Part shown: positions 7,991-24,047 of the stretch, in pieces | Position numbering within the stretch: the stretch's first letter is position 1 | Layout: each line of letters starts with the position of its first letter | DNA from: Oscillospiraceae bacterium | GTDB lineage: Bacteria > Bacillota > Clostridia > UMGS1840 | DNA: 38,173 bases | Assembly: GCA_015068645.1 (NCBI GenBank) | Contig: SVKD01000002.1 | Span: 119,733 to 157,905, forward strand | Direction: 5' to 3' | Translations under genes and position numbers: made by a program | Notes under the pieces: model-generated | Told to the model about the DNA's origin: nothing | The model's input: only the letters and a program-made list of their open reading frames with translations | The model's database searches: none

Positions 7991-8178
7991 GTGAAGGATG
8001 CAGGAGAAAGGCGGATGCCTTGCCGAAGGAGTAACTCTCTCAGGCGCTTTTAGCAAAGACTGCAGACGGATAGCGCTCCGGAGAAGTCCCTTTTCCCTCA
8101 ACCAAAAAGAGGAAAAGACAAAGGATGCCGAAGGTGTAAAGCTTAAAAGAGCTAATCTCTCAGGCAAAAGGACGGAGA
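7991..8178 (+). promoter_or_regulatory. Tandem glycine riboswitch
   Basis: Two consecutive copies of the glycine aptamer core can be read. The first has GGAGAAAG, GCCGAAGGAGTAA and CTCTCAGGC (8002-8046). The second has CTCCGGAGAAG, GCCGAAGGTGTAAA, CTCTCAGGCAAAAGGACGGAG (8077-8177). The GCCGAAGG and CTCTCAGG boxes are the invariant glycine-binding elements. A terminator follows at 8230, and the next gene is an alanine/glycine symporter, so control is probably by transcription termination. Whether glycine turns the gene on or off cannot be decided from the sequence by eye. Confidence 0.93.
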
Positions 8179-8229
8179 AAACAGTCATTTCTTTTGAAAA
8201 ATGGCTATTTCTGTGTAATGCGGAATATT

Positions 8230-18007: not shown

Positions 18008-18913
18008 ATGGCTTACAATAAATTTTTCGTTATGATTTTGGTGTTGGCAGCTGTTTTGTTTTCGACGATAATGGTTGGACTTGGTGCTTGGTGCTCCTAC
18101 CGTTACATTTCGCCTGCAGAGCGGGTACCGGAAACAGTCACCGATATTGCAGACGCCGGACGGGTAAACGCTTTGCTGCTGACGACCGACGATGCGGGAC
18201 TTCTTTCCGATACCGTGACGCTTTTGTCTTTTGACCCCCACCGTGAGCGCCTGAACATTCTTTTTATTCCCAAAGATATCCGTGTCCCACGGGACGGCAC
18301 TTTATATCAGTTTCATACGTTGTATGCTATGGGAGAAGAAGGCAAACGTTACGAGGAGCCTGTTCGTTACGTCAAAGAACTGACGGGGCTTCCCGTCCAT
18401 TATTATGCAGTGATGCATCCTGACGCACTTCGGACGGTTGTGGATGAGCTGGGCGGGGTCTGGATGGATGTGCCGAAGCGGATGTATTATCGGGATTCCA
18501 AGCGGAATCTTACCGTTGATTTATCTCCCGGATATCAACTTTTAGACGGGGAAAAAGCAGAACAGTTTACCCGTTTTCAGGCGGGATACAGCGATGGGGA
18601 GTCAGAACGAATCAAGGCCCGGCAGATGCTTGTTACCGAGTTGATTAATCAGAAGGCAAAACCGCGGTATCTTGGGAAAGTACCCCGGTTGTTGCAGGTG
18701 CTTTCCAGTCATGTGGAAACAAACTTAAAAGTCGCAGATTTCTCCCTTTTCCTGCAATTTTTCGGAAACTTTTCCGAGATTACTGTTTCCACTTTCCGGA
18801 TGCCTGTTTTAAAGGAGTTAAAAAACGGAATTTCCTATGTGATTTGTGACGAGGAAAAAACCCGTCAACTAATCCGTCGGGAATTTTTGGGACAAGAGGA
18901 GAAAAAACGTTGA
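18008..18913 (+). CDS. LytR-CpsA-Psr (LCP) family protein
   Basis: LCP proteins are membrane-anchored enzymes that attach polymers such as teichoic acids or capsular polysaccharide to peptidoglycan. A single N-terminal membrane anchor (residues about 7-29) precedes the LytR domain. Family blocks are NALLLTTDDAGLLSDTVTLL (54-73), FDPHRERLNILFIPKDIRV (75-93, counterpart of the SIPRD motif), YYAVMHPDALRTVVDELGGV, and LSPGYQLLDGEKAEQFTRF followed by RIKARQ. The usual LGsDsR triad reads LTTDDA and SIPRDT reads FIPKDI, so some catalytic positions differ from well-studied members. The ribosome-binding site GGAGAGGA precedes the ATG. It appears monocistronic. Confidence 0.88.
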   Translation: MAYNKFFVMILVLAAVLFSTIMVGLGAWCSYRYISPAERVPETVTDIADAGRVNALLLTTDDAGLLSDTVTLLSFDPHRERLNILFIPKDIRVPRDGTLYQFHTLYAMGEEGKRYEEPVRYVKELTGLPVHYYAVMHPDALRTVVDELGGVWMDVPKRMYYRDSKRNLTVDLSPGYQLLDGEKAEQFTRFQAGYSDGESERIKARQMLVTELINQKAKPRYLGKVPRLLQVLSSHVETNLKVADFSLFLQFFGNFSEITVSTFRMPVLKELKNGISYVICDEEKTRQLIRREFLGQEEKKR

Positions 18914-18963
18914 TTTTTTGGGGAAAAATCCCATAAAATATGGGAAAAACCAACAAAAATTTA

Positions 18964-18992
18964 TTGACATTGGGGAAAAACTGTGCTATACT
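18964..18992 (+). promoter_or_regulatory. Sigma-A promoter for the structured leader/ncRNA upstream of potA
   Basis: A perfect TTGACA (18964-18969) and TATACT (18987-18992) with a 17-base spacer. The predicted start is near 18999, about 550 bases before the potA ATG, so the transcript has a very long untranslated leader or makes a separate RNA. Confidence 0.88.
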
Positions 18993-18998
18993 GAAAAT

Positions 18999-19364
18999 AT
19001 CATCGGATTTTGGAACATAGGTTCCTGAGGGTGAGAATCACGACCGCTTGATTTTTTGGAAAATTCCATCAAGCCAAGGCCAGACGGACAGCCGGGTCGA
19101 ACGCCGAAACGCCGAATTTTGAACGCAGAATTCGGTTGGTAGGGATAACCTGCCTTATTGATTGAGTTAGAAGCTCAAATTTTATAAGTTGGTTCCTTTA
19201 CAACCATGTGCCAAAAACAGCGCACACATCGACTTGTGAAACGGTCAATAAGAGTACGCGGATTAAACTCTGAAACCTATTTCAAACCGGCAAAAGGGAA
19301 ATACCCTTTTTGTCTTCGGATTAACCTTTGCAAGCGGTGTGTCAATCAGACATACCGTTTTTTT
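18999..19364 (+). ncRNA. Candidate structured ncRNA or riboswitch-like leader upstream of the pot operon
   Basis: This stretch has its own strong promoter and ends in a strong terminator (19335-19364). The core (about 19010-19205) folds by eye into many local helices: GGAAC-ATAG-GTTCC, GGTGA-GAA-TCACG, CTTGAT.../...ATCAAG, CCGAATT.../...AATTCGG, GGTAGG-GATAA-CCTGCC, TTGAG.../...CTCAA and GTTG.../...CAAC. Purine-rich joining segments between them (GGCCAGACGGACAGCCGGGT, GAACGCCGAAACGCC) look like conserved single-stranded cores. A frame open through part of this region joins onto potA but has no family similarity. I could not assign it to a known class with certainty; it has the length and density of helices of large Firmicute ncRNAs such as raiA. 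Confidence 0.55.
19335..19364 (+). terminator. Strong intrinsic terminator inside the pot leader
   Basis: CGGTGTGTC (19335-19343) pairs fully (one G-T) with GACATACCG (19349-19357) around AATCA, followed by seven T. A second terminator-like stem, AAAAGGG/CCCTTTT, is at 19292-19310. Either could end an ncRNA or attenuate the pot transcript. Confidence 0.82.
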
Positions 19365-19500
19365 ATTGTGAATACAACAAGGCTCCGGGGCACCCGACTG
19401 CAATCTTTGATTGCTTCATCGGGTCGGGTTCTTATTGTGAATACAACAAGGTTCCGGGGCACCCGACAGCAATCTCTGATTGCGTCATCGGGTCGGGTTC
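19363..19500 (+). repeat. 69-bp tandem duplication just upstream of potA
   Basis: Two copies (19363-19431 and 19432-19500) of a unit beginning TTATTGTGAATACAACAAGG and containing CCGGGGCACCCGAC, a GCAATC/GATTGC inner stem and TCGGGTCGGGTTC. In each copy ACCCGAC can pair with the GGGTCGGGT side. The copies differ at only about five positions, implying a recent duplication. Confidence 0.88.
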
Positions 19501-19547
19501 TTATTTTTGCAATTTTTCTAACTTATACAGAGAAGGAAGAAACCTCT

Positions 19548-20681
19548 ATGGAACAGACGAACATGACGAAGAAAATCATCGAACTTAAAAATATCTCCAA
19601 GGAGTTTGAAGGCGAACAGGTCTTACGCTCCATCAATTTGGATATTTATGACAAGCAGTTTGTAACCCTGCTTGGTCCTTCCGGTTGCGGAAAAACCACC
19701 ACTCTTCGTATTGTAGGCGGTTTTGAGGTTCCCAATGAAGGGGAAGTGCTCTTTGAGGGCAAGCAGATTAACGATGTGCCTGCTCACAAGCGTCATATCA
19801 ACACGGTGTTTCAGAAATATGCGTTATTCCCTCATTTAAACGTGTTTGAAAACGTGGCATTTTCCTTGCGTCTTAAAAAAATTCCCAATGCGGAAATCAT
19901 CCGCAGAGTGAAAGAAATGCTGGAATTGGTTGCTCTAAAAGGCTTTGAAAGAAAGAACGTGACTAAGTTATCCGGCGGGCAGCAGCAGCGTGTTGCTATT
20001 GCAAGAGCGTTAATCAGCCATCCCAGAGTGTTGCTTTTAGACGAACCTTTGGGTGCTTTAGACTTAAAACTTCGTAAAGACATGCAAAACGAGCTGAAAA
20101 AAATCCAGAAGCAGACCGGCATCACCTTTATCTACGTTACTCACGACCAGGAGGAAGCGCTCTCCATGTCAGACGTGGTGGTGGTTATGGCAGAAGGAAA
20201 AATTCAGCAAATCGGTTCTCCCACCGATATTTACAATGAACCTGTAAACGCGTTCGTTGCAGACTTTATCGGCGAAAGTAACATTTTAGACGGTGTGATG
20301 AATGAAGATTACAAGGTAACTTTTTCAGGACATACCTTCCAATGCGTGGATAAAGGCTTTGCACCGGGCGAACAGATTGATGTTGTGGTGCGTCCCGAAG
20401 ATGTGGATGTGGTTGCTCCCAAAGACGGGATGCTCACCGGTACGGTTACCTCTGTCACCTTCAAGGGTGTTCACTATGAAATCATTGTGGATATTGACGG
20501 ATTCAAATGGATGATTCAGTCCACCGATTTTGTGGACGTGAATGCCAATATCGGCGTATCCATTGACCCGGATGCCATCCACATTATGAAAAAATCCGAA
20601 TTCTCCGGTCAGTACGGTGACTATTCCACCTTCTCCGACGAAATCGACGAGTTGTCTAACACGGAAACGGTAGGTGATTAG
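19548..20681 (+). CDS. potA: Spermidine/putrescine ABC transporter, ATP-binding protein
   Basis: ATPase of the polyamine importer PotABCD, on the cytosolic face. Motifs are Walker [10 protein letters not shown] (residues 43-51), Q-loop Q89, signature LSGGQQQR (141-148), Walker B LLLDEP (163-168 region) and H-loop H199. A C-terminal TOBE-type regulatory domain covers about 280-350 ([26 protein letters not shown]). The frame is open upstream to 19206, but that would translate the structured leader and tandem repeat. ATG 19548, after AGAAGGAAG, gives the normal 377-aa PotA. The stop codon sits one base before the potB ATG. Confidence 0.95.
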
Positions 20682-20682
20682 G

Positions 20683-21501
20683 ATGCAAAATTCGAAAAGC
20701 AGTTTTTTGGGGAAGATGACTGCAGCACCCCATATTCTGTGGTCAGTCCTGTTTATCCTGGCACCCCTTGTTTTTGTGATTTATTATAGCTTCACCGATG
20801 CCAACGGCGCCTTTACTTTTGGCAATATTTTAGCACTGGAAGAACATACCAACACCTTCTTTTTATCGATAAGTCTATCGGTGATTGCCACTTTTATCTG
20901 TTTTATCATCGGCTATCCTTTGGCATATTTTATTGCAGGATATAAGGAAAAATCCCAAAAAATTATGATTACCCTCTTAATGCTTCCCATGTGGACCAAT
21001 CTGTTAATCAGAACCTACTCCATGATGGCAATTATGGATGACGGCGGTTTTTTGAACACCATTTTAGGTGCATTAAACTGGGGAAAAGTACATTTAATCG
21101 GCACCAAGGGTGCTGTGATTTTCGGGATGGTGTATGATTTTCTGCCCTATATGGTGCTTCCCATTTACACCATCATCTCCAAATTGGACGTGAGCCTGAC
21201 AGAAGCTGCCCGTGATTTGGGTTGCAGCCAGATGCAGGTGGTAAAAAAAGTGATTCTTCCCTTATCCAAATCCGGAATCATTTCAGGGATCACTATGGTG
21301 TTTGTGCCTTCCATCTCCACCTTCTACATTTCCCAGAAGCTGGGCGGCGGCACCTTTGAACTCATCGGTGACACCATTGAACGTCAATTTCAAAATGTTT
21401 CCACCTACAACGTAGGGGCTGCCATTTCTTTGGTTATGATGATTCTGGTATTGCTCTCTTTAGCCATCATGAACCGCTTCTCAGAAGAGGAGGCTTCGTA
21501 A
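20683..21501 (+). CDS. potB: Spermidine/putrescine ABC transporter, permease PotB
   Basis: One of two membrane permease subunits, about 272 aa with six membrane helices. The cytosolic EAA loop that contacts PotA reads EAARDLGCSQMQVVKKVILP. The LPMWTNLLIRTYS block is typical of PotB. I chose ATG 20683, preceded at good spacing by AGGTGAT in the end of potA; an in-frame GTG at 20674 would overlap potA. The partner permease potC is not adjacent: 525 bases of repeats intervene, although all four pot genes share orientation. Confidence 0.94.
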   Translation: MQNSKSSFLGKMTAAPHILWSVLFILAPLVFVIYYSFTDANGAFTFGNILALEEHTNTFFLSISLSVIATFICFIIGYPLAYFIAGYKEKSQKIMITLLMLPMWTNLLIRTYSMMAIMDDGGFLNTILGALNWGKVHLIGTKGAVIFGMVYDFLPYMVLPIYTIISKLDVSLTEAARDLGCSQMQVVKKVILPLSKSGIISGITMVFVPSISTFYISQKLGGGTFELIGDTIERQFQNVSTYNVGAAISLVMMILVLLSLAIMNRFSEEEAS

Positions 21502-22026
21502 AATCGTCACATTTTTCGTTTTTCTTCCTTTGCGTACACAAAAGTACGCGGCAGTCAGAAAATTCACAAAATCTGTTCGATTTTTTCATCAGCCTCATAG
21601 GAATGGAGGAGGCGGGCTAAAAATCAATGAATATTGAATAATGAAAAATGAATAATTGCGGTGGCAGGCAAAGCCTGCATTATAATGTTCCCAAAGGGCA
21701 CCACCATTTTTATTCTTTCATTCTCCAATACATAGAAAGTAGGGGACGATGCCCACATTGTCCCGCTATACTGCAAGCCTGACGAAATTTTGTGTTGTAT
21801 CAAACAACGGGCAGATGTAGGCATCTGTCCCTACTTGCAGAATTCCAAAAAATACATCTGTTTTCCATAATCCCCATTGGAATGACTTGATATTAGCGGA
21901 AAAAAACAATTCAGATTGTGCGGCTTTTGTGACCGACGCATACTATGTGTATGCGAGGGAGCAAAAACGTGCAAGATGTTTGTTTTTAGACGCGGTAATA
22001 CATAGAAAGGTAAAAGAGCAAAGAAT
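21502..22026. repeat. Nested repeat block inserted between potB and potC
   Basis: No gene is seen. In order it holds a GCGTAC/GTACGC hairpin unit (21532-21549), an AT-rich inverted-repeat element (21626-21725, with GCAGGCAAAGCCTGC and CCCAAAGGG hairpins), a GTAGGGGACGATGCCCACAT palindrome (21740-21764), a related inverted unit (21808-21834, GCAGATGTAGGCATCTGTCC), and a hairpin GCATAC/GTATGC (21938-21954). The block separates two genes whose products work in one complex. Confidence 0.8.
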
Positions 22027-22836
22027 ATGAAAATTTTCTCTAAAATCTATACTGCTTTAATTTTCATAATTTTATATATCCCTATTTTAGTGCTGATGAT
22101 GTTTTCCTTTAACTCCACATCCAACACGGGTGCTATGACAGGGTTTTCTTTCTATTGGTATTCTGAGCTTTTTAACAGTCCCGAAACTTTCACTGCATTG
22201 CAAAACACATTGGTGCTTGCTATAAGTGCCGCTGTGATTTCTACCGTAATTGGTACGGCTGCGGCAGTTGGTTTAACCAAATTTCGTAAAAATTACTGGA
22301 AAAACTCTGTGATTTCCATTACCAATATCCCGATGATGAATCCTGATATTGTAACCGGGATTTCTATGATGCTCTTGTTCGTATTTATCGGAACAATGCA
22401 GGGCAGCGACGAAAAGCTCAGCTTTTTTACCATTCTGATTGCACACGTTACCTTCTGTTTGCCCTATGTGATTTTATCCGTTCGTCCCAAGCTGTTATCT
22501 ATGCCGAAATCTTTACCCGAGGCAGCGCAGGACTTAGGTTGCACACCCCTGCAGTCTTTCTTCCGTGTGGAACTGCCCAACATTATGCCCGGTGTTATTT
22601 CCGGCTTCATTTTAGCATTTACCTTATCCTTAGACGACTTCGTAATCAGTTATTTTACCACGGGGAATGATTTTCAAACCCTGCCTTTGTTGATTTATTC
22701 TATGACCAAAAAAGAAGTAAAACCTGATATTTACGCTCTTTCCACCATTATGATTGTGGCGGTTACCACACTTTTGATTTTGTCCAATCTGTTTTCCAAG
22801 GAAAAAAGCACGGAAGGAAGGTTGTCTATCAAATGA
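22027..22836 (+). CDS. potC: Spermidine/putrescine ABC transporter, permease PotC
   Basis: Second permease of the polyamine importer, 269 aa with six membrane helices. Characteristic blocks are YIPILVLMMFSFN near the N-terminus, the proline-rich NIPMMNPDIVTGISMMLLF, and the EAA loop EAAQDLGCTPLQSFFRVELP, which pairs with PotA. LDDFVISYFTTG is strongly PotC-like. The stop codon overlaps the potD start (ATGA at 22833), so potC and potD are translationally coupled. The nearest ribosome-binding-site-like sequence is AGAAAGGTAAAAGAG. Confidence 0.94.
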   Translation: MKIFSKIYTALIFIILYIPILVLMMFSFNSTSNTGAMTGFSFYWYSELFNSPETFTALQNTLVLAISAAVISTVIGTAAAVGLTKFRKNYWKNSVISITNIPMMNPDIVTGISMMLLFVFIGTMQGSDEKLSFFTILIAHVTFCLPYVILSVRPKLLSMPKSLPEAAQDLGCTPLQSFFRVELPNIMPGVISGFILAFTLSLDDFVISYFTTGNDFQTLPLLIYSMTKKEVKPDIYALSTIMIVAVTTLLILSNLFSKEKSTEGRLSIK

Positions 22837-24047
22837 GAAAAATTCTTTCCATCTTCTTAGCCTTGCTGTTGTGTGTCACCGTGTTGCCCTTATCCGGTTG
22901 CCAAACCAAAAGCGAAAAACTCACCTTAAATGTGTATAATTGGGGCGAATACATTTCCGACGGAAGCGAAGACACATTGGATGTCAACAAGGAATTTGAA
23001 ATTTACTGTCGGGATGAGTTGGGAATGGAGGTAGAGGTCAACTATACCACCTATGCCAGCAACGAAGATATGTATAACAAGTTAAAAAGCGGCTCCACCA
23101 CTTATGATGTGGTGATTCCCTCTGAATACATGATTGAAAAAATGATTGCAGAGGATATGCTTTCCCCCTTAGATTTTTCTAATATCCCCAATTTTCAGTA
23201 TATTGATGACGGATTTAAAAATCTGTTTTATGACCCCGAAAATCTCTATTCCGTCCCCTACACCTACGGAATGGTTGGTATTATTTACAATGATACCATG
23301 GTAAATGAGGAAGACCTGGGTAGCTGGGATTTACTTTGGAACGAGAAATACAAAGGAAAAATTCTCCAGTTTAACAATCCCCGTGATGCCTTTGGCACCG
23401 CCATTTACTGGGCAGGGGAAGACGTAAACTCCACCGACCCCAAGGTGTGGCATTCTGCAGTGGAAAAACTGAAAGCTCAGAAGCCTTTGGTTCAGAGCTA
23501 TGTGATGGATGAAATTTTCAATAAAATGAAAAACGGCTCCGCTGCTGTGGCTCCTTATTATGCAGGGGACTATCTTACTATGTATGACGGTAATGACAGC
23601 TTAGGCTTTTATTATCCCGAAGAAGGCACCAACGTGTTTGTGGATGCTATGTGTGTTCCAAAATGTGCCAAAAATCAGGAATTGGCAGAAATTTATATTA
23701 ACTTTATGTTAGAAGAAGAGGTTGCCATTGCCAATGCCGAATATATCGGATACGCTTCTCCCCACAAGCTGGTGCGGGAAAACGAAGAGTATGTGGAATA
23801 TATGGTAGATTGGCACGAGGATGCAATGGAGATTCTTTATCCTTCCGGCAATCAGGATATAAAAACTGCTTATTACGAAAGTCTGGCCCCCGCCACTTTA
23901 GAGCTTCAGAACAGTCTTTGGGAAACCTTAAAGATTGAAAATGCGGTGGAACCCTGGATTTATCTGGCAAGTGCCACGATTGTGGGCGCATTGCTCTTAT
24001 TCTTCTTATATCGTATGATTCGCAAAAAACATCGCGACAACTATTAA
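22833..24047 (+). CDS. potD: Spermidine/putrescine-binding lipoprotein PotD with extra C-terminal membrane helix
   Basis: Extracytoplasmic substrate-binding protein of the polyamine importer. The N-terminus is a lipoprotein signal ending in LSGC (lipidated Cys 23). The mature domain shows PotD blocks: LNVYNWGEYIS (about 31-41), DVVIPSEYMIEKM, YGMVGIIYN and APYYAGDYL. At 404 aa it is about 50 residues longer than usual PotD. The extra part is a C-terminal hydrophobic helix, WIYLASATIVGALLLFFLYR, followed by a basic end (RKKHRDNY), so the protein may be held in the membrane at both ends. Coupled to potC by an ATGA overlap; 18 bases before the next gene. Confidence 0.93.
   Translation: MRKILSIFLALLLCVTVLPLSGCQTKSEKLTLNVYNWGEYISDGSEDTLDVNKEFEIYCRDELGMEVEVNYTTYASNEDMYNKLKSGSTTYDVVIPSEYMIEKMIAEDMLSPLDFSNIPNFQYIDDGFKNLFYDPENLYSVPYTYGMVGIIYNDTMVNEEDLGSWDLLWNEKYKGKILQFNNPRDAFGTAIYWAGEDVNSTDPKVWHSAVEKLKAQKPLVQSYVMDEIFNKMKNGSAAVAPYYAGDYLTMYDGNDSLGFYYPEEGTNVFVDAMCVPKCAKNQELAEIYINFMLEEEVAIANAEYIGYASPHKLVRENEEYVEYMVDWHEDAMEILYPSGNQDIKTAYYESLAPATLELQNSLWETLKIENAVEPWIYLASATIVGALLLFFLYRMIRKKHRDNY

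Follow-up and report, generated by a model that had tools for sequence, protein, structure and literature searches.

A conserved leader RNA of polyamine genes, filed in Rfam as SpF59 sRNA, as a candidate polyamine riboswitch ahead of a potABCD importer operon

In the present study, we analysed a structured RNA ahead of the potABCD importer operon in a stretch of 38,173 nucleotides from an Oscillospiraceae bacterium (the window). We propose that this RNA, as the leader of the importer genes, attenuates their transcription in cis, and that it is most likely an OFF riboswitch which senses a polyamine; we consider this reading probable. That the RNA attenuates polyamine genes in cis is, judging from comparative sequence analysis, almost certain, and direct sensing of a polyamine by the RNA itself is fairly likely on the logic of the pathway. 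The evidence comes from the family to which the RNA belongs, from a conserved pairing between its core and the terminator, and from the genes behind it.

Layout of the locus and family of the RNA

The elements of the locus, all on the plus strand of the window, are the following.

18964-18992, +, sigma-70-type promoter, TTGACA-17-TATACT with TG ahead of the -10 box (from the sequence; recurs in homologues)
19012-19025, +, 5' leader hairpin GGAAC/GTTCC (minimum free energy fold, a single-sequence prediction only)
19041-19107, +, 5' domain, the RF02440 match, with P1 19041-45/19095-99, P2 19046-50/19070-74 and P2b 19078-80/19091-93 (Rfam, covariation)
19111-19136, +, inserted hairpin, found mostly in PotA-linked members (fold, alignment)
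19138-19154, +, P3 hairpin with strong covariation (alignment statistics)
19156-19250, +, core, with P4 19156-61/19245-50, P5 19162-66/19174-78, P6 19183-90/19231-38, P7 19191-94/19202-05 and P8 at about 19207-11/19222-26, shifted relative to the model (alignment; the core is found by model R2)
19251-19271, +, P9 hairpin, short form without P9b and P10 (model fit)
19224-19237, +, predicted 5' strand of the antiterminator, formed by the 3' strands of P8 and P6 (pairing scan)
19330-19342, +, predicted 3' strand of the antiterminator, sharing bases with the terminator's left arm (13 pairs with one bulge, -17.4 kcal/mol)
19332-19366, +, intrinsic terminator, a 12-pair stem at 19332-19360 followed by a T-run (from the sequence)
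19548-20681, +, potA, ATPase of a spermidine/putrescine ABC transporter (open reading frame; NCBIfam NF043075 and TIGR01187 above cut-off)
20674-21501, +, potB-like permease (named by position and matches to the blastp set, without a scan of its own)
22027-22836, +, potC permease (best match PotC, below the equivalog cut-off)
22833-24047, +, potD substrate-binding protein (best match PotD, below the equivalog cut-off)

The original prediction had described a unit of promoter, structured RNA and terminator upstream of potA. This arrangement was confirmed, except that the promoter, which had been called perfect, carries 11 of the 12 consensus bases. Promoters with at least 10 of 12 bases were present no more than 140 nt 5' of the RNA in 39 of 57 homologues (5.9% of shuffles), and with at least 9 of 12 in 49 of 57, compared with 32% of shuffles. 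The transcript 18999-19367 has a predicted minimum free energy of -115.5 kcal/mol (z = -4.96), and none of 100 dinucleotide shuffles was as stable.

Several other features of the window were observed. Between the terminator and potA (19360-19497), a 69-nt element with a hairpin is present twice in tandem, the copies being 93% alike. This element occupies 40 sites of the genome with 79-100% identity (40 of 46 candidates scored) and is a REP/MITE-like dispersed repeat. The gap of 525 bp between potB and potC (21502-22026) has no long plus-strand open reading frame, contains a 66-aa frame on the minus strand and a weak 34-nt repeat, and is possibly another inserted element within the operon. A glycine riboswitch aptamer (RF00504, 48.1 bits) is located at 8068-8185.

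The Rfam search of the region recovered a family that the original prediction had overlooked. Positions 19041-19107 match RF02440, 'SpF59 sRNA (ldcC RNA)', over the whole model (1-54 of 54) with 61.8 bits and E 6.5e-9, above the gathering cut-off of 37.2, so that the window RNA belongs to this family. raiA RNA is a large structured RNA of Firmicutes, and a raiA-like class had been suggested for the element. A permissive Rfam scan of 18900-19540 (E <= 1) gave RF02440 alone, with no match to raiA, T-box or SAM riboswitch models, and the raiA proposal was dropped on this ground.

RF02440 covers only 54 nt (67 nt in the window) of a conserved RNA of about 200 nt; it describes the 5' domain of P1, P2 and P2b and is filed as an sRNA gene. 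Within the order, 7 of 9 genomes carry it; the numbers are 40 of 391 for the class, 31 of 398 for the class to which genome G343 belongs and 18 of 398 for genomes sampled across the phylum, with one match per listed genome. Among 14 named control genomes only Lactococcus lactis carried it. To describe the RNA at its full extent, we built model R1 (198 positions, from 56 non-redundant RNAs) and model R2 (125 positions, from 46 RNAs), the latter restricted to the 3' core. R1 matches the window at 19041-19271 with 148 bits and E 8e-42, a match by construction since the window copy is one of its 56 training rows. Among 291 genomes of the class, R1 matched 40, seven of which RF02440 missed. R2 matched 25 of the 398 phylum genomes, namely all 18 with RF02440 and seven more, and thus the 3' core outlasts the loss of the Rfam domain. 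This domain is absent in several of the loci found by R1 or R2 only, which indicates that the P4-P9 core is more widely shared than the 5' domain. By a manual count of family codes, the RNA was found in 46 families, all of one phylum, and a search of viral contigs with one exact core pattern gave no sign that phages carry the core.

Two loci of one family (f107; L149 and L150) carry minimal forms without P1-P5, in which only the core ACTTGTGAA...TAAGAG...TTTGCTATATAGACTCT is retained. They lie upstream of SpeD with a terminator-like hairpin recognised by eye, and these forms are a guide to the smallest functional core.

Conserved fold and alternative pairing of the terminator

Alignment of the homologues answered the question of covariation clearly, and the outcome in which no covarying helices are found did not arise. 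In the alignment of 86 RNAs (80 distinct) fitted with R1, which is biased toward its own structure, standard pairs fill 95.1% of cells, and changes on both sides are seen in 34 of the 56 pairs; neither value was reached in any of 500 shuffles, and pairing falls to 34-40% when the partners are slid by 1-3 columns. An unfitted MAFFT alignment of the 56 homologues agrees, with double changes in 7 of 28 RNAalifold pairs. In this alignment the outer pair of P1 is U-A, C-G or G-C in 53 of 56 RNAs, and P3 and P2b covary too. P4 is nearly invariant and P6 mostly so, and covariation is silent for both; P8 pairs in only 66% of cells. In the window the pairs of the model all form apart from P8, whose register is shifted, and P9b, which is missing.

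Sequence comparison also points to a pseudoknot, P10, which would close the 5' and 3' ends of many members not linked to PotA. A GCAAATA-like stretch just 5' of P1 can pair with TATTTGC in P9b; this pairing ranks within the best 5% for 28 of 53 loci, with covariation in several. Compensatory changes upstream of P1 and in P9b were seen in four loci (L033, L085, L086 and L126), for example CACAATG/CATTGTG. Neither the window nor most of the other PotA-linked members have P10, and we therefore rejected it as a part of the window's mechanism.

An intrinsic terminator lies between the RNA and the gene in 62 of 63 loci; the exception, a weak match (L127), has none and lies 28 nt ahead of its gene. 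For 48 of the 62 loci, the 22-nt stretch that best complements the terminator's left arm has its centre in the 3' strands of P8 and P6, against about 12.5% expected from length; for the other 14 it is elsewhere. Compared with shuffled arms, the pairing has z < -2 in 54 of 62 loci. True partners have a mean of -14.6 kcal/mol and swapped ones -11.6, with none of 2000 permutations as good, and the result was the same (0 of 2000) when arms were swapped within a gene class. Since the true partners surpass the swapped ones, the antiterminator and P6/P8 covary. For the window copy, the automatic scan had chosen a later hairpin in the dispersed repeat, and the canonical terminator was substituted by hand for the permutation test. 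With this canonical terminator, the window arm GCAAGCGGTGTGT pairs with 19224-19237 at a predicted -17.4 kcal/mol, and 2 of 1000 shuffles were as good. Energies predicted without ligand or kinetics place the P6 form (-104.7 kcal/mol) and the antiterminator (-105.0) near balance before the right arm of the terminator is made; after it is made, P6 with terminator (-115.5) wins over the alternative (-105.9). Thus, as in a transcriptional riboswitch, the terminator arm has an alternative partner within the conserved domain.

The first guess of the original prediction, a terminator-controlled leader sensing something related to polyamines, has the best support of the readings, from this covarying partner of the terminator as well as from the genes described below. 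This evidence fits any effector, and an attenuator mediated by protein, in which an RNA-binding protein responding to polyamines would bind the leader and stabilise its terminator form, has to be considered. We regard it as unlikely, because the core P4-P9 is nearly invariant over about 100 nt, with many conserved positions that are unpaired, in 46 families of one phylum, which is more aptamer-like.

Control of the speF type acts through ribosome stalling at a leader peptide. A translated leader of this kind, with arginine or ornithine sensed through stalling, is extremely improbable for the present RNA and was rejected: only 7 of 63 loci have a short open reading frame preceded by a Shine-Dalgarno sequence, with no common position, and single-base indels in the loop of P5 break any common frame, even though polyamine genes are leader-controlled elsewhere, as the accessible part of PMC6386406 describes for Salmonella speF.

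Polyamine genes behind the RNA

Downstream sequence could be read for 99 loci, and in 97 of these the next gene in the direction of the RNA is a polyamine gene. In the 83 RF02440 loci it is CASDH in 33, SpeD (SAM decarboxylase) in 18, an Orn/Lys/Arg (OKR) decarboxylase in 17 and PotA in 13 (81 of 83), within about 500 nt, and a decarboxylase follows SpeD in 17 of the 18 SpeD-linked loci. The same was found in 7 of 7 loci detected by R1 only, in 6 of 6 further loci detected by R2 only (the seventh, in genome G278, is counted under R1), and in 3 of 3 others, L025, L028 and L153 of Paenibacillus cellulosilyticus; L030 was left out as its sequence ends inside the RNA. The two exceptions are a contig end (L088) and an IS200-like transposase read from its open reading frame (L089). 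In L089 the transposase gene stands directly behind the RNA at about 2006-2413, and the 5 kb behind it gave no decarboxylase (ADC); two loci of the same genus (L079 and L080) have one.

The names of the reference proteins come from NCBIfam and Pfam models: SpeD from TIGR03331 and PotA from NF043075 and TIGR01187, all above cut-off, the decarboxylase from PF01276, and CASDH from its best match, carboxynorspermidine synthase NF043000, below the cut-off of that model. The RNA search used no protein information, so the link between the RNA and polyamine genes is not circular. Many of the loci come from one family-like group (f35) and are non-independent, and the four gene types and 46 families are the safer measure. 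A conserved folded domain is thus found 5' of functionally related genes, as is expected of a transcriptional riboswitch. Taken together with the antiterminator, this context points to a cis leader and away from a free-standing sRNA gene, and the suggestion that the element is an independent ncRNA which merely sits here fits poorly with the 97 loci.

In the importer-linked copies a further regularity was seen. SpeD (PF02675) was not found in any of the 13 genomes with a PotA-linked RNA, four of which are less than 80% complete; it was found in all five comparison genomes, of which only two are informative, as three carry the RNA directly on SpeD. The genome of the window has one OKR decarboxylase and no CASDH match. 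In the simplest reading there is one switch, and it controls the route, whatever this may be, by which polyamines are obtained.

The substrates of SpeD and of the decarboxylases are SAM, arginine or lysine. A riboswitch for one of these substrates, or for agmatine or decarboxylated SAM, is conceivable on that account, and we judge it rather unlikely. SAM or decarboxylated SAM makes little sense for the PotA-linked members, whose genomes are those without SpeD, and the importer and the biosynthetic genes have polyamines as their common end product.

Proposed mechanism and relation to known systems

Returning to the reading of a polyamine-sensing leader, we propose the following course of events. 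RNA polymerase would start from the promoter at 18964-18992 and produce the folded RNA of about 200 nt with its nearly invariant core P4-P9. Binding of a polyamine, spermidine or a relative, would stabilise P6/P8, and the left arm of the terminator at 19332-19360 would then be free to form the stop ahead of potA. In the ligand-free RNA, P8 and P6 would give up their 3' strands (19224-19237) to an antiterminator with the left arm (19330-19342), and potA would be transcribed. A polyamine is the end product of the pathway, and by this logic P6/P8, and hence termination, should be the state that it favours. Direct ligand binding, the identity of the ligand as a polyamine and the OFF direction are what we infer in this scheme.

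The one established spermidine riboswitch that we found is a SAM-I variant (Salvail et al, PMC10853860). As described in the accessible part of that paper, it shares with the scheme proposed for the window RNA the control of polyamine genes (ldcC and speE included), the terminator/antiterminator OFF design and the end-product logic. Its architecture is different, and the window RNA has no SAM-I-type match at E <= 1; the 'ldcC' of PMC10853860 is a gene name, and we rejected the identity of the two RNAs. The same part of the paper presents that class as rare (13 representatives in its alignment) and gives speE, speB and ldcC as its genes, with no importer stated. An 'ABC-leader' ahead of potABCD in Haemophilus somnus and Pasteurella multocida is, in the accessible part of PMC2965389, a predicted attenuator as in the window; it belongs to Gammaproteobacteria and is likened to the window RNA by description only.

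The family itself is already known, since it is in Rfam as a short sRNA, and the alias 'ldcC RNA' means that someone had noted the link to ldcC. The alias fits SP0916 of S. pneumoniae, which we take to be a lysine decarboxylase. The pneumococcal sRNA F59/srn235 occupies the gap from SP0915 to SP0916 with the orientation of SP0916, and srn235/SN20 insertions lower lung fitness (accessible part of PMC3395615); F59 is likewise listed in the available part of PMC4387999. A paper of 2025 treats srn235/F59/Spd_sr49 as a putative sRNA, present in 385 strains and 327 nt long by TIGR4 coordinates (PMC12323649, in part). Going by the name, F59 is Rfam's SpF59, which also suits the alias.

On these records, the RNA could be taken for a small RNA acting in trans, with the adjoining polyamine gene incidental: Rfam types it as 'Gene; sRNA', F59/srn235 is among the candidates with predicted targets in the accessible part of PMC12323649, and the srn235 insertion mutants have a lung fitness of 0.05 in that of PMC3395615. 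We consider this very unlikely. The RNA stands ahead of, and codirectional with, a polyamine gene in nearly all loci, the terminator arm covaries with its core, and polarity on the downstream operon could account for the fitness effect. A leader cut at its terminator would explain why pneumococcal studies list an sRNA, and the terminated RNA could in addition act in trans.

The literature within our reach, which left out most subscription journals and preprints, contained no description of RF02440 as a riboswitch or polyamine leader. As far as it goes, the full extent of the RNA, its almost exclusive association with genes that make or import polyamines, and the terminator/antiterminator design are new. 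Hunts for spermidine riboswitches have been numerous and mostly unpublished, and further classes are expected, according to the accessible part of PMC10853860. We lean to the view that the present RNA is a second class of polyamine riboswitch, structurally independent, far more widespread and hidden in Rfam as a 54-nt 'sRNA', with one copy per genome placed on SpeD/decarboxylase, on carboxynorspermidine synthase, or on the PotABCD importer where the SpeD route to spermidine is missing.

In conclusion, the RNA is a specific and testable riboswitch candidate in 46 families of one phylum, with defined boundaries of aptamer and expression platform. Its confirmation would recast an RNA listed as a virulence-linked sRNA of S. 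pneumoniae as the leader of a polyamine operon, and would explain how the spermidine importer is controlled in species without SpeD.
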